DNA of 64,000 nt from assembly GCA_037200525.1 (NCBI GenBank), contig JBBCGG010000001.1, forward strand, positions 2,274,501-2,338,500, in the 5' to 3' direction. Both the position numbers and the translations under genes were made by a program. This stretch comes from Methylocella sp. (GTDB taxonomy: Bacteria > Pseudomonadota > Alphaproteobacteria > Rhizobiales > Beijerinckiaceae). A model generated the notes under the pieces. The model ran no database searches and was not told the origin of the DNA. It saw nothing but the letters and a program-made list of their open reading frames with translations. Positions 878 through 51,739 of the stretch are shown piece by piece (positions within the stretch are counted from its first letter, which is position 1; every line of letters starts with the position of its first letter).

Positions 878-1186
878 TTGGAGGAGCGATAATCGCGATC
901 TACGAATGATCGAATTGGCGCAGTTGGTCCCTATCATTCCATTGAGCGCCCGCCTTGTCCTCGGAACGCTTTGTGCAGTTTGCCTAACAACGTTTGTAAA
1001 GTCGCACATTGGTAGGATTTAGACGTCTGCCATAGCTGGTACAGATTGGCGCGACGTGCTTGAATGCCTCTCGGTGGTCGGGCGGGGCTGCCACTGAAGT
1101 CGGCATCGACCATTCTACCTTTCCCGTCCAGACCTCCAAAATAGGCTGCTTGATCTCGTTCGCACTATCGAAGGGAGGCTCTCCGT
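862..1186. other. Intergenic stretch, no gene recognised
   Basis: Apart from the hairpin at its left end I see no coding homology on either strand. The last part (about 1150-1186) is the leader of the cytochrome P460 gene, with GGGAGG about 12 bases before its ATG. Confidence 0.5.
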
Positions 1187-1709
1187 ATGAGGCGGATAGT
1201 TTCCGTGCTCGTTGCAGTAGCAGTGATCGCCGGCGTGGTCCCCTACGCGGCCCCGGCGTCTGGACAATCCGATGGAGAGGCCGCCCCGATCTTCGGAGTC
1301 AAAATTCCCCCCGGATACCGCGATTGGAGATTGATCTCCGTGGCTCACGAAGAAGGCAACCTCAACGATTTGCGCGCCATTCTGGGTAATGACGTAGCGA
1401 TCAACGCCTACAGGGAGGGGAGGCTTCCGTTCCCGGACGGCGCGATCATTGCCCGACTCGCCTGGAGTCATATCCCGTCGGAGGAAAACAATAAAGTCTT
1501 TGGCCGCTCCCAATCTTTCGTGGCCGGGGCCCCTACGAACGTTCAGTTTATGGTCAAGGACTCAAAAGAATACGCCTCAACCCGGGGGTTGGGGGTTCGC
1601 TCAATTTAGCGAAGGCAAACCCGCCGATGAGGGGGTGCACAATACCTGTTTTTCCTGCCATGAGCCCGTCAAAGCTCGCGACTTCGTCTTCACTCGTTAT
1701 GCGCCTTAA
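1187..1709 (+). pseudogene. Exported cytochrome P460 family protein, frameshifted
   Basis: The first frame (1187-1609) encodes a signal peptide (MRRIVSVLVAVAVIAGVV, cleavage near ASG-QS) followed by the cytochrome P460 signature region PPGYRDWRLISVAHEEGNL and PFPDGAIIARLAW. It runs into nonsense after KDSKEYAST. The family sequence resumes in the next frame as GGWGFAQF and contains the haem-binding CFSCH motif (1647-1661) before stopping at 1709. One surplus base in the GC-rich run at about 1578-1592 explains the break. Intact P460 proteins are periplasmic c-type haem proteins with a Lys-haem crosslink that oxidise hydroxylamine or bind NO, common in ammonia- and methane-oxidising bacteria. 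Either a true pseudogene or a sequencing error. Confidence 0.85.
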
Positions 1710-5040: not shown

Positions 5041-5044
5041 ATGA
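4943..5044 (+). CDS. Possible 33-aa leader ORF coupled to the GMC oxidoreductase gene
   Basis: The ORF begins MNYERLRHFTAAAK and ends ...KRGASP, its stop codon sharing four bases (ATGA) with the start of the next gene. No Shine-Dalgarno of note precedes it and the peptide resembles nothing I know. The overlap geometry is what you would expect of translational coupling, but it can arise by chance; evidence is weak. Confidence 0.2.
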   Translation: MNYERLRHFTAAAKVNGDGQARPPEYEKRGASP

Positions 5045-6972
5045 CGACAAGGCGGGAGTTATTAAAAGGGTTGACAGCGGCGAGCGCGGGCGTTGCGGCG
5101 TTATCCTCTAATGCGTTCTTGGCTGAGGCTAAGACTAAAACATTCGATTATATTGTGGTTGGTTCGGGTCCCGGGGGCGGCCCTTTGGCCTGCAATCTGG
5201 CCAAGGCCGGATATAGCGTCTGCTTGATGGAAGCCGGCGGCTCGCCCCGCGATCCCGACGTCCAGAAGCTGATAGAGGTTCCCGCGTTTAATGCGGATGT
5301 GACGGCGGCGCCGAAGGTCGCTTGGGAGTACTTCGTCCGCCATTACTCGGATGACGCGCAACAACAAAAGGACAGCAAATACGTCGCCGCTAGAGGAGGA
5401 GTTCTATATCCGCGCGCGAGCGCAATCGGCGGTTGCGCAATACACAATGTGCTGTTCATGATGTATCCCAGCAACTCAGACTGGCAGCACATCGTTGAGC
5501 TCACAGGCGATAAAAGCTGGTCGCCTGATTTGATGCGCAACTATTTCCAGCGCCTGGAACAATGTCGTTACGCGGCGCCGCACTTCGGGACGGCGGATGC
5601 CACGCGTCATGGGTTTAACGGCTGGCAACCAACCGAACTGCCTGATCCTCGGATATTCTATGACGACCCGCAGTTTAAGGCGATGCTGCATGCAGCAGAG
5701 CGCGTGATGGGCAAATCCGGAGACGTGAATGGTTTTCTTCATAACAAGCTGGATCCCAATGATTACGCCGCGACGCAGAGCGACCGGGAGGGGCTTTATA
5801 GTTTACCGATGTCCAGGAAGAATGGAGTGCGGTGGAGCATCCAGGATCACATTCTAAAAACGGCGGCGGCGTATCCCAATCTTACCATCATGACCAATTG
5901 CCTGGCGACGCGCATTCTCATGAATGACGAGACGGCGACCGGAGTCGAATACATGCAGGGGGCCCACTTGTATCGCGCCTCTCCGCTGGCCGACCCGACC
6001 GTGCCGATGCCGCAGACAAACGAAGTCCGGGCTGCCCGTGAGGTCATCATTGCGGCGGGCGTCTTCAACAGTCCGCAAATCCTGAAGTTATCTGGAATTG
6101 GCTCCGCCGAGGAGTTGTCCAACTTTGGCATTCCGACGCGGATCGAACTCCCGGGAGTGGGGACGGGCATGATGGATCGTTACGAAGCCTCGGTGGTGAC
6201 GCAACTTAAAGATCCGCTCACGGTGTTTGACAAATGCGTCCCCAGGTCTGCCGCGGACCCCTGTTTGGCGGCCTTGCAACAAGGCAAGGGGATCTATACG
6301 ACCAACGGAGTGCCGCTTGCTGGCATTCGTAAATCCGACCCTTCCCGGCTGGATCGCGATCTAGTGATCTTCCTCGCGGGTGGACAGTTCCGCGGCTACT
6401 ATCCGGGGTGGCAGAAGGACTTGTTCAACCCCGCACGGCTCAGCTGGGCAGTGCTTAAAGCTCATACTCAGAACCGCGCCGGGACCGTAATGCTTCGATC
6501 GAACGATCCGCGCGACGCGCCGCAGATCGATTTCCATTATTTCCAGGAAGGCAGCGATCAGTCCGGTGAGGACCTTGCGTCGGTCGTGAATGCAATTCAA
6601 CTGATCAGGCGGCTAAATGCCGAGATCCCGGATTATGCCTCATCTGAGCTGGCGCCGGGACCGGCGGTGCAAAGCGCAGACGAAATCGCCACTTTTGTGA
6701 AGAATGAAGCGTGGGGCCATCATGCGTCATGCAGCAACCGGATGGGGACGAGCGCGGACCGCATGGCGGTGGTCGACAGCGAGTTCAAGGTTTTCGGCAC
6801 GCGCAATCTGCGCGTGGTGGATGCTTCGGTGTTTCCGCGAATTCCCGGCTATTTTATTACGATCCCGATTTTCATGATCAGCGAAAAGGCCAGCGACGTA
6901 ATATTGGCGGATGCCCGTTCGCGCGGCGGAATGCGTCATCCGAAAAGATCGGGCGGTACGCAAAACCTTTAG
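5041..6972 (+). CDS. Tat-exported GMC-family FAD oxidoreductase
   Basis: The 643-residue product starts with a twin-arginine signal (TTRRELLKG and a hydrophobic Ala-rich segment to about residue 30). The FAD dinucleotide-binding motif VVGSGPGGG sits at residues 39-47, and the GMC C-terminal region has the active-site His pair at 560-561 (WGHHASCSNRMG) followed by DASVFPRIPGYF. Members oxidise alcohols, sugars or choline-like substrates, passing electrons to quinone or cytochrome c when periplasmic. The IPGYF variant near the C-terminus, instead of the GNTNAPT stretch of choline dehydrogenase, places it in a less characterised subgroup. It is followed after about 310 bases by the nitrile hydratase-like genes on the same strand. 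Substrate unknown. Confidence 0.88.
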   Translation: MTTRRELLKGLTAASAGVAALSSNAFLAEAKTKTFDYIVVGSGPGGGPLACNLAKAGYSVCLMEAGGSPRDPDVQKLIEVPAFNADVTAAPKVAWEYFVRHYSDDAQQQKDSKYVAARGGVLYPRASAIGGCAIHNVLFMMYPSNSDWQHIVELTGDKSWSPDLMRNYFQRLEQCRYAAPHFGTADATRHGFNGWQPTELPDPRIFYDDPQFKAMLHAAERVMGKSGDVNGFLHNKLDPNDYAATQSDREGLYSLPMSRKNGVRWSIQDHILKTAAAYPNLTIMTNCLATRILMNDETATGVEYMQGAHLYRASPLADPTVPMPQTNEVRAAREVIIAAGVFNSPQILKLSGIGSAEELSNFGIPTRIELPGVGTGMMDRYEASVVTQLKDPLTVFDKCVPRSAADPCLAALQQGKGIYTTNGVPLAGIRKSDPSRLDRDLVIFLAGGQFRGYYPGWQKDLFNPARLSWAVLKAHTQNRAGTVMLRSNDPRDAPQIDFHYFQEGSDQSGEDLASVVNAIQLIRRLNAEIPDYASSELAPGPAVQSADEIATFVKNEAWGHHASCSNRMGTSADRMAVVDSEFKVFGTRNLRVVDASVFPRIPGYFITIPIFMISEKASDVILADARSRGGMRHPKRSGGTQNL

Positions 6973-7157: not shown

Positions 7158-7298
7158 ATGGACGCGTCTATCTTTCGCCAATGGCGATGGGCCCAGCTTG
7201 CCAGGGGAGTCGCTTGGATCCAGATTGGACCAGAATTGGATTTGCATCGCCCCATGCGGGATGCAGCGACGGAGGAAGGCTCATGTCAGAAGGATTAG
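7158..7298 (+). CDS. 46-aa small ORF with a strong ribosome site, leading into the nitrile hydratase-like genes
   Basis: A very good Shine-Dalgarno (AAGGAGG, seven bases before the ATG) precedes this ORF, whose product begins MDASIFRQWRWAQLARGVAW. It overlaps the first nitrile hydratase-like gene by 16 bases, so ribosomes leaving it would reinitiate there. It is Trp/Arg-rich near the start and matches no family I recognise. It may be a small accessory protein or a leader peptide; alternatively the ribosome site may be a relic. It is the only coding signal in the gap between 6973 and 7282. Confidence 0.4.
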   Translation: MDASIFRQWRWAQLARGVAWIQIGPELDLHRPMRDAATEEGSCQKD

Positions 7299-7630
7299 GT
7301 CGCGCGCAAAAGCCGCCGCCGAGCGTTGTGAACGCGGAAGGTAACGAGCCGCTTTTTAAAGCGGGCGATGCGGTCAAAGTCTCGGTGCGGTTTCCCATCG
7401 GCCATTTCCGCGTGCCGAACTATATTCGAGGCAAGCGCGGCTTTGTGGAATCTGTAATCAAACCGGCCGCTGTAAATAACGAGGATGAAGGCTTCGGCCT
7501 AAACGCAGGAGTCAAACGCCACTACTACCGTATCGCCATCCCGCTAAAGGACCTATGGCCGAAATATATCGGCTCCCCGAAGGACGGGTTGCGTATTGAA
7601 GTCTTCGAGACTTGGTTGGAAAGGAACTGA
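7283..7630 (+). CDS. Nitrile hydratase beta-subunit C-terminal-like protein (thiocyanate hydrolase alpha type)
   Basis: 115 residues made up of the SH3-like barrel that forms the C-terminal half of nitrile hydratase beta subunits: FKAGDAVKVSVRFPIGHFRVP then YIRGKRGFVE, and a C-terminal LWPKYIGSP...RIEVFETWLE. In thiocyanate hydrolase this half is a separate subunit (ScnA), and three-subunit nitrile hydratases are also known. The ATG at 7283 is chosen over upstream in-frame starts because GGAGGAAGG lies just before it and homology begins about 30 residues later. It is the first of three closely packed genes (gap of 3 bases to the next). It should pack against the metal-binding subunit and shape the active-site channel. 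Confidence 0.8.
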   Translation: MSEGLGRAQKPPPSVVNAEGNEPLFKAGDAVKVSVRFPIGHFRVPNYIRGKRGFVESVIKPAAVNNEDEGFGLNAGVKRHYYRIAIPLKDLWPKYIGSPKDGLRIEVFETWLERN

Positions 7631-7633
7631 AAG

Positions 7634-8275
7634 ATGAAGGCCCACGAGCATGACCATACGCCGGCCCCGGATGCAAGCGATTCACTAAACTACTATGAGA
7701 TCATGGAGACCGCCATTCGGGAATTGCTTGTAGATAAGCAAGTGATTGGACCGGGGGAGATCCGGCGAATGCTCGAAGTAATGGACTCCCGTGCGCCGGC
7801 GCTTGGCGCGAAAATAGTGGCGCGCGCTTGGGTTGATCTGGAATTTCGCGCGCTTTTGCTCGCAGATGGCCGCGCGGCCTGCGAAGCGCTCGGCATCGAC
7901 TTTTTTGAGGACACTCAACTCATGGTGCTCGAGAATACGGACAAGGTGCACAACATGGTTGTTTGCACGCTCTGCTCTTGCTACCCGCGGGAAATTCTCG
8001 AACTGCCGCCGGACTGGTACAAGCTGAAACCATATCGTGCGAGAGCGGTTTTCGAGCCTCGTGCTGTCTTGGCCGAGTTCGGCACGATAATTCCAGACGA
8101 CGTAGAAATCCGCGTTAGCGATTCGACAGCCATGGTGCGTTTTCTGGTGTTGCCGCAGCGGCCGGAGGGAACCGACGGTTGGAGCGAGGAGAGGCTCGCC
8201 GCCTTAGTCACGCGCGACGCCATGATCGGCGTCGTGAAAGCCAGCATTCCGGAGACGGAGCACAAATCCAAATGA
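7634..8275 (+). CDS. Cobalt-type nitrile hydratase alpha / thiocyanate hydrolase gamma subunit
   Basis: 213 residues with the catalytic metal-binding motif VCTLCSCYP: Cys111, Cys114 and Cys116 with Ser115. The Thr after the first Cys is the cobalt-type signature (iron enzymes have Ser). Downstream stretches LPPDWYK, RAVLAEFG, DSTAMVRFLVLPQRPEGT and TRDAMIGV are conserved across the family. The metal centre hydrates nitriles to amides or, in thiocyanate hydrolase, converts thiocyanate to carbonyl sulfide and ammonia; sequence alone does not decide between them here. The motif is followed by RE rather than the common WP, a possible substrate determinant. A His-rich N-terminus (HEHDH) could handle metal. 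Its stop overlaps the next start (ATGA). Confidence 0.88.
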   Translation: MKAHEHDHTPAPDASDSLNYYEIMETAIRELLVDKQVIGPGEIRRMLEVMDSRAPALGAKIVARAWVDLEFRALLLADGRAACEALGIDFFEDTQLMVLENTDKVHNMVVCTLCSCYPREILELPPDWYKLKPYRARAVFEPRAVLAEFGTIIPDDVEIRVSDSTAMVRFLVLPQRPEGTDGWSEERLAALVTRDAMIGVVKASIPETEHKSK

Positions 8276-8619
8276 CCGACTCAGAAAACCTGCTGAAATG
8301 GCTTCCGACCGAAATGGGCGGCCTGGAGGGCGGCCCTATCCAACGTGTGGAGCACGAATATGCGCCCTGGGAAAAGCGCTGTCACGCGTTATCCGTTCTT
8401 CTCGACATTCACAAGATCATCAGCACTGAAGAAAAGCGCCGCGGGGTCGAGAGTCTCGGGTCCGAAATTATTGGTAAGCTGACTTACTACGAACGATGGA
8501 TAGTCGCCTTTGCCAACATCCTGTTTCAGAAGCAGATACTCACGCCCGAGGAGCTGTCAAAAAAGATGGCGGAAGTAGAGGATCGTCATTTGGGTCACGC
8601 GCATGGCGCTCATGGTTGA
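8272..8619 (+). CDS. Nitrile hydratase beta N-terminal-like protein (thiocyanate hydrolase beta type) or activator
   Basis: 115 residues matching the helical N-terminal half of nitrile hydratase beta subunits: MGGLEGGPI near the start, PWEKRCHAL, the YYERWIVAFANIL helix and LTPEEL. The C-terminus is His-rich (HLGHAHGAHG). The metallochaperone-like activators of this enzyme family (P15K, p14K, NhlE types) share the same fold, so this gene could be the missing beta half, an activator, or serve both roles. It starts inside the stop codon of the catalytic subunit gene (ATGA, 8272-8275), indicating coupled synthesis. In Thiobacillus thioparus the N-half gene comes first; here it is last. Confidence 0.75.
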   Translation: MTDSENLLKWLPTEMGGLEGGPIQRVEHEYAPWEKRCHALSVLLDIHKIISTEEKRRGVESLGSEIIGKLTYYERWIVAFANILFQKQILTPEELSKKMAEVEDRHLGHAHGAHG

Positions 8620-9199
8620 ATGATTTCCAGAGCGATGGCGCACTGGCGTCGTTGCCCGGGGGAAGGGGGCCTAGAGGTCGCGGTCGGAGGCCGGTCATTG
8701 TTCGCCAAAGCGCAACTCTTGGGGGCCTGCGTGCTCGTGCCGCTAAGGATTCGCCCTGAGATGGGCCACGGCCATTAGCGTCACGATCGACCAGACTCGC
8801 AAATTCTCCAGGCCTTGAGCGTCCGGGCCGCCGGCGGGCTTCTTGCGTCTGCGGCCATGGCGTTGGCGTCGATCTGGCTTACGGGACCGTGTGCAGCCCT
8901 GCAGGCGGCGGACAGCATCGCAGCAAAACCGCGAAAACCGCGAAAACCGCCGCGGCATCGCGACGCAAAAACCTGCGCTGCGGCGAAAGAAACAAGAAGC
9001 CGCCCAGAAATGCGTCGCGGCAGTTGCAAAACCCTTTTGACGCTGGTAGCTCAGCGAGCAATTGACGAGCGCATAGCCGATTTAGAGCAACTCATTTGCA
9101 ATCGGAGGGTCTGGGGTAAAAAAGCGAGTTGGATCATGCGCTTAAGGTTCGCGCGATCCGATCAAATACCGAACGGGCACCGGAATCGGTGTTCATAGG
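8620..9199. other. Gene-poor stretch between the nitrile hydratase-like operon and tRNA-Thr
   Basis: No separate nitrile hydratase maturation gene follows the operon. A possible small exported protein can be pieced together on the plus strand from 8857 (signal-like MALASIWLTGPCAALQAAD) to 9040 (ending CVAAVAKPF), but only by assuming a frameshift near the short repeat at 8925-8951. I do not regard it as an intact gene. Confidence 0.3.
8925..8951. repeat. Three tandem copies of a 9-bp unit (AAAACCGCG)
   Basis: Units at 8925-8933, 8934-8942 and 8943-8951; the last differs in its final base. In one frame it encodes Lys-Pro-Arg repeats. Such repeats are prone to slippage. Confidence 0.7.
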
Positions 9200-9274
9200 G
9201 CCGGCGTAGCACAGCGGTAGTGCAGCGGTTTTGTAAACCGAAGGTCGGGAGTTCGATCCTCTCCGCCGGCACCA
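9200..9274 (+). tRNA. tRNA-Thr (anticodon TGT)
   Basis: A full cloverleaf can be drawn. The acceptor stem is GCCGGCG (9200-9206) with CGCCGGC (9264-9270), the D arm is GCAC..GTGC, the anticodon loop is TTTGTAA with TGT at its centre, and the T arm is GGGAG-TTCGATC-CTCTC. A9271 is the discriminator and CCA (9272-9274) is genome-encoded. It reads ACA codons. It stands alone, with no evidence of an integrase or of a duplicated 3' end elsewhere in the window. Confidence 0.93.
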
Positions 9275-9527
9275 TCTACCTTCCTTCGGGCCGAGCCCGA
9301 CGTCAGCAGGATAGTTCGGGCTGCCAAGTCATCGTCGTTCTGGCTGGAATGCAGAACCTCCTGCGGCTCCAGACGTAGCAGCGTCGGGAACTGGACTTCC
9401 CCGGCTACGATACCAAGCTAGAGCGGCTGCTGGCGTGATTTACTTGCGCTTATCGAGTTCAACCACCCCAAGTCCATTTAATTAGCGCGGCTTGAATTCG
9501 CTTAGCGCTTGTTGTGCAGCATCTCAA
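9275..9527. other. Non-coding stretch downstream of tRNA-Thr
   Basis: Short ORF-like pieces exist but none resembles a known family. The stretch ends in the hairpin described next. Confidence 0.4.
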
Positions 9528-9557
9528 GGACGGCCGTGCCTACAGGCACGGCCGTTC
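9528..9557 (-). terminator. Strong hairpin downstream of the phospholipase C gene
   Basis: ACGGCCGTGCC (9530-9540) and GGCACGGCCGT (9545-9555) form a perfect 11-bp stem with a four-base loop, 39 bases beyond the stop codon of the minus-strand phospholipase gene. The T tract is short (CCTT), so it may act in both directions or as an mRNA-stabilising stem. Confidence 0.55.
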
Positions 9558-10320
9558 CTCTCTTCTCAAGGGCTTGCGCGACGAAGCGCCTGTTCTCAGG
9601 CCTTCAGGGTCACCAGACCGCCCATCGCCGGATCCGACATGCTGTCGCGTCCGGTCTCGACATGGCCGGCCAGGCGACGCTGGAAGCTCGGGTCCTCCGC
9701 GACCGTGACGACCACGTCGTACCAGCCTTCGAAACGGTCAAGCGGCAGCTGGAAGTCGCCATGCCCCTCCGGAGGAAGCACGCGGTGGGCCTTCTCGCCC
9801 GTGTACGCATCAAGCAAGGTCACGCTAGCGATCCGCGCGCCAGCATTCCGGACCGACAGTGAGAACGAGCCGTTGTCGTCGAATCCGTGTTCGCGTTCGG
9901 AATGGGCATCGACCGCCACGGCGCCCGAGCCAACGCTGCCCTTAAAGTGGCGCGTGAACCCGTTCGGGCCGTAGACGGTCAGGTCGTATGAGCCAGAGAC
10001 CGTCCAGCTTCCCGACAGCTGCTTGCCGGCCTCGACCGTGTAGGTCCGGACCGGATCGGTGGTTTTGCCAGAGCGCACTTGGAACACTGCACCCGCGCTG
10101 CCGCTGTTGACGAAGCGCAGTTCGACCGTGTTGGTGAAAGCCCGGACCGCGCTGTAGACGTCCAGCTCGTAGGGCAAGGCGCGCGCCGGGCGGACGCCCT
10201 TTTCCTGCGGCGGAACGCCGATGATCACGTTGTTCGCCGTAAGATTGACGTTCGGCGGATTGACGGCGCCGGAAAGCTCTCCGATCGAAGGCAGGAAGTG
10301 CGTGGTGGACGGTAGATCTA

Positions 10321-11153
10321 GGCTCAGGACTCATTGATTGAGATAGAAGAGGACGGCGGCTGCGATGCAGATGGCGGAGAAGAAGGTGTGGGCGCATCGA
10401 TCATAGCGGGTTGCGATGCGCCGCCAGTCCTTGAGCTTGGCGAACATGTTCTCGATTTTGTGACGCTGGCGGTAGAGCGTCTTGTCATAGGCAATGGGAA
10501 GCTTGCGGCTTCTGGTTGGCGGGATGCAGGGCTCGACGCCCCTGGCCTTCAGCGCGGCGCGGAACCAGTTGCTGTCGTAGCCCCTGTCGGCGATCAACAT
10601 TGAAGCGGGCGGTAAAGCCTTGAGCATCAGCCGCGCGCCCTTGTGGTCGCTCATCTGGCCCTCCGAGAGCAACATGACGAGGGGCTTGCCGGCGCCGTCG
10701 CAAACGACGTGGAGCTTCGAGTTCAGTCCGCCTTTCGTGCGCCCGATACGGCGGGGAAGAGCCCCTTTTTGAGCAGGCTCGCCGCTGTGCGATGCGCCTT
10801 CAGATGCGTGGCGTCGATCATGATGCGCTCGGGCTTTGGACCTTCGCCAGCGAGCGCGGCGAATATGCGGTCGAAGACGCCGAGCCGGCTCCAGCGGATG
10901 AAGCGATTGTAAAGCGTCTTGTGCGGCCCGTAATCCTTGGGCGCATCTTTCCATTGCAGGCCGTTGCGGATCACATAGACGATTCCGCTGACCACCCGAC
11001 GGTCGTCAACCCGCGGAACGCCATGCGACAGAGGAAAATGCGGCGCAAGCCGCGCCATCTGCCGCTCGCCCAACAAAAACAAATCACTCATCCCAGCCTC
11101 CCCATGCGGAGACCAGGAATCACATCTCAGGCAAATTTAATAGGTCCTGAGCC
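10321..11153 (-). mobile_element. IS5-family (IS427-like) insertion sequence, copy 1 (833 bp)
   Basis: The element begins GGCTCAGGAC and ends GTCCTGAGCC, with imperfect terminal inverted repeats, and is flanked by TA on both sides (target ...GATCTA/TAGATC...). It lies inside the phospholipase C gene. A second copy with matching translations in every frame lies at 36364-37196, suggesting recent transposition. The transposase is read on the minus strand in two overlapping frames. Confidence 0.92.
10331..11091 (-). CDS. IS5-family transposase, orfA and orfB joined by a -1 frameshift (copy 1)
   Basis: OrfA (11091-10723, 122 aa, MSDLFLLGERQMARL...) carries the helix-turn-helix DNA-binding part and the first catalytic Asp (MIDATHLKAH). 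OrfB continues in the -1 frame to 10331 with RRIGRTKGGLNSKLH, the second Asp (LIADRGYDS) and the C-terminal Glu region (RHKIENMFAKLKDWRRIATRYD). Reading switches within AAAAAGGGGC in the KKG codons of orfA, a plausible slippery site. Together they form a DDE transposase of the usual IS427-group length. Confidence 0.9.
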
Positions 11154-51187: not shown

Positions 51188-51235
51188 CGGGGCAGGCGGC
51201 TTGCGTCCATGCTCCTCGGAGGAGGGGAGGTAGCA

Positions 51236-51739
51236 ATGCAAGACCAAAGCACGCTGATCCATCTCGAATATGTAGGCGACCGCAGCTTTGATGAGATTGT
51301 CGCCGCCTTCGAGGCGGCGACAGCACCGGTCAACGGCGACCAATTTCGGGAAGCTGTCGTTGCTTCCGTGGGCGACGTCGAGGATTTCGAAAAGCGCATA
51401 CATGGCTTCGAAGGGCCAAGCGGTTTCATGCGATTCCTTGACATCGATCACGGTGCCTGGATGCAGGTGTTGGGCATTCCGGGGCGAGCAAAGTGTTATA
51501 TCCTCGGCAATCCCTTGATTGCCGCGACGATGGTTCGCCATGATATCGGCGCCGGTCTGAATGCGCCGGTGCGCATCTTGATTATCGAGGACCCTTCGAG
51601 CCGCCGCGCGAAGCTCGTTTATGATCTTCCATCATCGCTGATGGCGCGCCTTGGCAATGATCAACTCAATGCCGCGGCGCTGAAGCTCGATGAAAAGCTC
51701 GCGGCCCTGGCTGAACTCGCGACGGGCGCCCACGCATAA
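51236..51739 (+). CDS. DUF302 family protein, paralogue 2
   Basis: 167 residues without a signal peptide. The DUF302 hallmark CYILGNPLIAATMVRHDIGAG, then APVRILIIED and KLVYDLPSSLMARLGN, is clear. An excellent ribosome site (GGAGGGGAGG) lies before the ATG at 51236. Its function is unknown. It follows the thiolase by 48 bases on the same strand and is closed by a hairpin, so the two may be co-transcribed. The exported relative is at 29224-29805. Confidence 0.85.
   Translation: MQDQSTLIHLEYVGDRSFDEIVAAFEAATAPVNGDQFREAVVASVGDVEDFEKRIHGFEGPSGFMRFLDIDHGAWMQVLGIPGRAKCYILGNPLIAATMVRHDIGAGLNAPVRILIIEDPSSRRAKLVYDLPSSLMARLGNDQLNAAALKLDEKLAALAELATGAHA

Follow-up and report, generated by a model that had tools for sequence, protein, structure and literature searches.

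A cobalt-type gene set of the nitrile hydratase family with a split beta subunit in the order C-half, alpha, N-half, conserved within one clade

We analyzed a window of 64,000 nucleotides from Methylocella sp. (contig JBBCGG010000001.1), in which three adjacent genes on the forward strand belong to the nitrile hydratase (NHase) family. Cobalt enzymes of this family carry the metal on a CTLCSC motif, the cysteines of which are oxidized, and hydrate nitriles to amides. The genes lie in the order C-terminal half of the beta subunit (betaC), catalytic alpha subunit, and N-terminal half of the beta subunit (betaN), hereafter C-alpha-N, with the following features.

5041..6972, + strand: GMC oxidoreductase with an RR-type N-terminus, 310 bases upstream of the set
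7271..7279, + strand: ribosome-binding-site-like sequence GGAGGAAGG, 5' of gene 1, read directly in the sequence
7283..7630, + strand: gene 1, C-terminal half of the NHase beta subunit (betaC), 115 aa, with a Pfam NHase_beta_C match
7634..8275, + strand: gene 2, Co-type catalytic alpha subunit, 213 aa, with an NHase_alpha match and CTLCSC
8272..8619, + strand: gene 3, N-terminal half of the NHase beta subunit (betaN), 115 aa, with an NHase_beta_N match

The open reading frames run from ATG 7283 to the stop codon at 7628-7630 (gene 1), from ATG 7634 to the stop codon at 8273-8275 (gene 2), and from ATG 8272 to the stop codon at 8617-8619 (gene 3), the stop of gene 2 and the start of gene 3 sharing ATGA. 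The spacing between the three genes is tight. The Pfam matches to NHase_beta_C (E 2.7e-16, 60.2 bits, cut-off 27.7), NHase_alpha (E 1.4e-76, 256.4 bits, cut-off 27.2), and NHase_beta_N (E 1.7e-17, 64.0 bits, cut-off 21.5) are well over the curated cut-offs, which excludes chance. Frames and matches agree with the initial annotation, which had described a betaC gene, a CTLCSC alpha gene, and a betaN-like gene in this order. The metal motif of gene 2 comprises C111, C114, and C116. Gene 1 has the conserved residues H41 and R43, the latter at the place of the C-half catalytic Arg, and gene 3 has E14-M-G-G (the DxGG motif), K55, R56 (in the catalytic Arg position), and E60. The set thus combines an alpha subunit that is over the family cut-off and carries C-x-L-C-S-C with separate N and C halves bearing R56 and R43, which is the composition of a three-subunit (split-beta) NHase. 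The genome, a single contig of 5.24 Mb, contains one NHase alpha match and one betaC match. The predicted fold of gene 1 (pLDDT 72.9) ranked the NHase beta chain 3qz9_B first (E 7e-7) and also matched the alpha chain of thiocyanate hydrolase (SCNase), 2dd4_A (E 1.2e-6, TM 0.68/0.66). For gene 3 (pLDDT 71.8), SCNase beta chains ranked at the top with weak values (E 4e-3, TM 0.50), and this model contributes little to how the gene is read.

We then looked at gene order in related loci, using N, alpha, and C profiles over six-frame ORFs. C-alpha-N was found in 20/20 examined loci of the window's kind (here the clade loci), namely, the window, 8 loci in 7 other genomes (G039, G098, G163, G192 with two copies, G216, G361, and G413), one in Candidatus Accumulibacter (L031), and 10 plasmid records. 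In an order-level search of 397 genomes, alpha matches with E <=1.3e-116 were confined to the window's genome and these seven, the next match being at 6.5e-84. Samples at the class level (385 genomes) and at the phylum level (398 genomes), both partly overlapping the order-level one, had only the window's own genome in the top alpha range, with the next matches at 1.8e-94 and 4.0e-87, respectively. Alpha matches were present in 138 plasmid records, 14 of them at 60-80% identity; 11 of these 14 are Rhizobiaceae, and all 10 that we examined were C-alpha-N. Public annotation of the plasmid-borne genes gives only nthA and SH3-like proteins. A scan of genome contigs with poor patterns gave 26 loci, with C-alpha-N at L031 alone. 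The other orders met were alpha-(N=C)-N, N-C-alpha, (N=C)-alpha-N, N-C-alpha-N, and rare N-to-alpha fusions. The order had initially been claimed to be unlike both scnBAC and NHases with a fused beta subunit; this was borne out, and the survey makes it a conserved trait of one clade. At the alpha/N junction, for which coordinates were read in the window, L198-L201, L203, and L241-L243, the two genes overlap by 1 or 4 bases in 8/9 loci and are separated by a gap of 2 in the ninth.

Some loci showed peculiarities of their own. The set's alpha gene is interrupted by an IS21 element in plasmid pRSpC104a of Rhizobium sp. C104 (L245, about 8001-11100). The two copies in G192:C1 (L132 and L133) are near identical and lie ~89 kb apart; their upstream oxidase, cytochrome c, and metallo-beta-lactamase (MBL) genes match, downstream they diverge, and one copy has only a short piece as its aquaporin match. 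In the split group, betaN and alpha occupy a single open frame at L013, L041, L068, L074, L188, and others. Ten of the 11 listed genomes of genus g599 (f290) have 3 to 5 alpha matches each, and the eleventh has 1.

The available text of PMC7193024 lists six NHase gene organizations, C-alpha-N not being among them, and that of PMC13243292 gives alpha-beta-accessory, beta-alpha-accessory, and the Streptomyces canus set. The order is likewise not described in the portions of PMC8278588 and PMC3323583 available to us, and we found no description of a C-alpha-N NHase in the open-access literature. With C-alpha-N added to alpha-N=C and N-C-alpha, every cyclic arrangement of the three pieces (alpha, beta-N, and beta-C) has now been seen.

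We built a final alpha-subunit tree from 67 chosen rows: 19 from the clade (L245 was omitted, its alpha gene being interrupted), 29/67 from N-C-alpha sets plus L202 and L244, 4/7 from SCNases, 3/6 from MYC sets, and 10/56 from NHases. MYC is our label for six loci (L044, L045, L047, L050, L052, and L056), one of them with a Methylocystaceae record; L056, the one scored, exceeds the SCNase cut-off. SCNases were defined as matches over the TIGR03887 cut-off, which occurred in 7/379 genomes of an order-level search centered on G751. The 19 C-alpha-N rows formed one clade with support 99/94, in a tree for which the bootstrap was unsettled (0.978). They had already done so in a first tree of 122 rows (10 C-alpha-N rows, SH-aLRT 99) and again in a tree of 155 rows with SCNases added. 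The sister of the clade, joined at 100/99, is a plasmid set of Streptomyces sp. NBC_01176, which has the order N-C-alpha and is accompanied by aquaporin and HoxN genes. SCNases and MYC sets formed a separate clade (100/99), and the alpha-first NHases formed another (100/100). Given one C-alpha-N clade, its N-C-alpha sister, and the separate SCNase and NHase clades, a single origin of the permuted order from N-C-alpha is most likely, and this order marks a single lineage.

The same data bear on the possibility that the set is a thiocyanate hydrolase, or an enzyme for another small anion, with rearranged genes. Like SCNase (scnB, scnA, and scnC), the set has three chains with a split beta subunit and a CTLCSC catalytic subunit; the best PDB match of gene 3 by sequence is an SCNase beta chain (2.9e-8); and a basic residue is shared at beta position 55, which is Lys in 20/20 clade N-halves and in the Streptomyces sister, Arg in 13/13 SCNase and MYC rows, and neither of these two in any of 56 NHases. 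The alpha subunit, however, scores 220.7 bits against the SCNase model TIGR03887, below the cut-off of 291.45, whereas the 7 SCNases found score 338.5-400.3; against the NHase alpha equivalog model TIGR01323 it reaches 244.6 bits, just short of the cut-off of 249.85, a value that is borderline within the clade (256.2 for L031, over the cut-off, and 248.3 for L003, below it). SCNase loci are N-C-alpha-N in 6/7 cases, with an N-like gene behind alpha, and N-C-alpha in 1/7; the arrangement given for SCNase in the available part of PMC7193024, alpha-beta-gamma-activator, differs from these 7 loci. Residues typical of SCNases are also missing from the clade, namely, Lys at alpha 167 (13/13 SCNase and MYC rows, including 7/7 SCNases), Asn at beta 60 (7/7), and Tyr at betaC 41 (6/7), and aquaporin neighbors, present at 14/20 clade loci (2 of them short pieces), suggest a neutral solute. 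We therefore consider an SCNase improbable: the initial candidate function of thiocyanate hydrolase is not supported by the catalytic-subunit phylogeny, and the shared order, although it does recur in many genomes, does not fall inside known scnBAC operons. The substrate is probably a nitrile.

We then compared residues in one alignment, using the numbering of the window. Both beta arginines are general, R56 of the N-half and R43 of the C-half each being present in 20/20 clade loci, 69/69 N-C-alpha sets, 7/7 SCNases, 6/6 MYC sets, and 56/56 NHases. The initial annotation had drawn attention to an RE after the Cys motif; R119 and E120 are indeed there, but they do not mark the set. Position 119 is R in 19/19 C-alpha-N rows, 7/7 SCNases, and 6/6 MYC sets and is R (64) or K (5) in the 69 N-C-alpha sets, so that a basic residue is general in split-beta sets, whereas the alpha-first NHases have W (53/56) or H (3/56) there; E120 also occurs in 8/56 of the latter. 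What sets the clade apart is alpha 162, which is S in 19/19 clade rows, W in 56/56 NHases, and H in 61/69 N-C-alpha sets, and alpha 167, which is hydrophobic (M, I, V, or A) in 19/19 clade rows and acidic in 56/56 NHases and 68/69 N-C-alpha sets. Together with Lys55 of betaN, these positions mark a subfamily, with a substrate that may differ from an ordinary nitrile. Since the clade has changed at residues nearly fixed elsewhere, the substrate of an ordinary NHase should not be assumed. Two other candidate traits were rejected. A His-rich alpha N-terminus is a general feature across groups (average His count over the final 50 residues of the N-terminal stretch, 6.4 in 10 C-alpha-N rows, 8.2 in 67 N-C-alpha rows, 7.9 in 56 NHase rows, and 5.3 in 7 SCNase rows), and a clade-specific betaC insertion amounted to one residue only.

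Gene 3 might be, as initially considered, solely an activator of the P14K/P15K type, the beta N-half having been lost. It does sit in the activator position, and activators share the beta-N fold, as reflected in its 18.8 bits (1.2e-3) against the accessory model TIGR03889. That score is well below the cut-off of 46, and gene 3 does better against the beta model TIGR03888 (48.1 bits). The GG of DxGG is kept in 20/20 clade N-halves, 56/56 NHases, 7/7 SCNases, and 67-68/69 N-C-alpha sets (68 for the second Gly), and its place is a gap in 68 accessory rows (54 + 5 + 6 + 3), all rows of this alignment having been trimmed to the profile. When the frames were inspected without trimming, [DE]xGG occurred in 10/10 C-alpha-N, 65/67 N-C-alpha, and 56/56 NHase rows and in 3/68 accessory rows, where it lies upstream, outside the aligned place. 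E60 is kept as well. The arginine at position 56 is invariant among structural N-halves, and R also occurs there in accessory rows, in 22/54 NHase cases and in 11/11 SCNase and MYC cases. A tree of the N proteins (180 rows and 91 columns, built before SCNase loci were added and with weak forks next to the clade) separated the 10 permuted N proteins from the NHase accessory rows (54 rows, support 98), but the accessory rows of the 6 MYC sets grouped on the same side as gene 3. The set has a single N, a point in the activator's favor, and no other N lies beside it at any of the 20/20 clade loci, so that a mere activator would require the functional split beta to have been lost throughout a conserved clade. 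We regard the activator reading as very unlikely, and gene 3 is on balance best read, from these motifs and scores, as the structural beta N-half. A related scenario, in which the first N was lost from an SCNase-like N-C-alpha-N set, was considered and is unlikely, since the remaining N is not P15K-like.

Other N genes were sought across the genomes with PF21006, a profile that can miss accessory genes. Besides gene 3, the window's genome had one match over the cut-off, an interrupted NHase-accessory-like ORF far away (G000:C1:3585833-3586090, - strand, L140/L142; 27.8 bits, one in-frame stop). It looks like a relic of the activator of an ordinary NHase operon, being interrupted and residing in a genome whose sole alpha and betaC belong to the set. 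Among the 7 other clade genomes, a second N was not found in 4; in the other 3, the search left accessory genes of ordinary NHases unlisted, and a distant activator may therefore exist elsewhere in the genome.

Among the closest known systems is that of Streptomyces canus, compared here by its published description rather than by tree placement. As described in the available part of PMC7329996, AnhD, AnhE, and AnhA are encoded in the order N-C-alpha with no activator gene reported and form AnhD2E2A2; AnhD, the N-half, acts through AnhD2A as a metal (cobalt) and self-subunit-swapping chaperone; and the enzyme is active on the nitriles ACE, THI, and BN, which we read as acetamiprid, thiacloprid, and benzonitrile. 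Both this enzyme and the window set are cobalt-type, with alpha and separate beta halves; they differ in gene order. The N-C-alpha sets of Pseudomonadota and others also have three separate chains and Arg or Lys after CTLCSCYP but differ from the C-alpha-N sets in order, in having other residues at alpha 162, alpha 167, and beta 55, and, in 22/23 cases, in the absence of neighboring aquaporin, DUF302, MBL, or cobalt transporter genes. To our knowledge, these split-beta N-C-alpha sets are uncharacterized. Ordinary Co-type NHases share the family, the metal motif, and the catalytic arginines; unlike the C-alpha-N sets, they have a fused beta subunit in 53/56 alpha-first rows, Trp after CTLCSCYP in 53/56, and an activator gene.

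We consider it rather probable that the set encodes a cobalt enzyme of the NHase family composed of alpha, betaN, and betaC, probably two of each, in which betaN would also serve as a cobalt and subunit-swapping chaperone, with no need for a separate activator. By analogy with the family, cobalt would be bound at the CTLCSC of alpha, the two beta halves would each contribute one of the beta arginines, and a nitrile would be hydrated to an amide. By likeness to AnhD, betaN may double as activator, being at once half of the beta subunit and the chaperone for cobalt loading. Its gene lies directly behind alpha, the place of the activator in beta-alpha-activator operons. As betaN occupies the activator slot and overlaps alpha, formation of an alpha-N loading complex could be favored, which betaC would then complete to the enzyme. 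PMC3511329 proposes that the alpha-activator complex forms more readily when the activator gene directly follows alpha, the measured gain in activity being small. We infer that the C-alpha-N order may aid cobalt loading in a comparable way, and the set provides a natural setting in which to ask whether the location of the gene promotes cobalt loading in a system with the N-half as its own chaperone.

We then evaluated the gene neighborhood. The neighbors at the 20 clade loci were genes for aquaporins (14), DUF302 proteins (10), MBL-fold hydrolases (10), and cobalt transporters (9), the short aquaporin pieces being at L132 and L135. At least one of the four was present at 18/20 clade loci, the exceptions being the window and L031. 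The same neighbors were found in controls at 1/23 N-C-alpha loci (the Streptomyces sister), 3/21 NHase loci (CbtAB only), and 0/5 MYC loci, a comparison that favors the clade, as the context queries came from the clade's own loci and the flanks were ~8 kb in controls versus 8-10 kb at most clade loci. We count the cobalt transporters in favor of a cobalt enzyme. No link between nitrile hydratase and DUF302 was found in the open-access literature.

A more far-reaching interpretation, which we put forward tentatively and judge possible rather than likely, is that the clade constitutes a distinct mobile cobalt enzyme system. Its cassette would consist of genes for an aquaporin, a DUF302 protein, an MBL-fold hydrolase, and a CbtAB or HoxN importer; its active site would be distinguished by alpha S162, a hydrophobic residue at 167, and beta Lys55; and it would have a new substrate and a betaN acting as both enzyme part and translation-coupled cobalt chaperone. 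A subfamily is marked by these residues and by the repeated presence of aquaporin and cobalt-importer genes nearby, and its substrate may be new.

One specific substrate is suggested by L133 and L134 (2/20 loci, one genus), where aquaporin, DUF302, mandelate racemase-like, aldehyde dehydrogenase, and benzoylformate decarboxylase genes lie downstream of the set, the decarboxylase of L133 scoring 635.6 bits against a cut-off of 493. The enzyme could thus be a mandelonitrile-type alpha-hydroxynitrile hydratase feeding aromatic-acid breakdown. These genes are restricted to a single genus, however, and are lacking at the other 18 loci, including the window, and a single amidase query gave no match at L133/L134. 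We find this substrate quite unlikely for the set, and we rejected the mandelate pathway as its general context.

The window copy itself has unusual traits. None of the cassette genes (aquaporin, DUF302, MBL-fold, and cobalt transporter) is near it; its alpha has Glu at position 123, where all 166 other alignment rows have Gly; its end branch is the longest in the clade (0.41); and only 1 of 14 other genomes of the same genus has an NHase alpha match, of another type. Downstream of the set, two overlapping ORFs (10331-11091, - strand) presumably resemble an IS5-type transposase. These traits could point to a transferred set that is in decay and has lost its function, an explanation we consider unlikely in view of the three intact frames, the ribosome-binding-site-like sequence, the Cys motif, and the two retained arginines. 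The C-alpha-N set, with an order that recurs in related sets of other bacteria, seems to be a genuine variant within an established type of enzyme, rather than a thiocyanate hydrolase or a broken set.

Finally, we inspected other genes of the window. The GMC oxidoreductase upstream of the set was considered as a partner and rejected: a homologue is present at 1/20 clade loci, the window only, and it probably lies outside the system. A DUF302 protein (35.2 bits) is encoded at 51188-51736 (+ strand), ~43 kb from the set. Upstream of the set, positions 1154-1606 (+ strand) encode a cytochrome P460 family protein (PF16694, 70.5 bits), and in Rhizobium leguminosarum (L201) and R. ruizarguesonis (L242), too, P460 genes lie near the C-alpha-N set.
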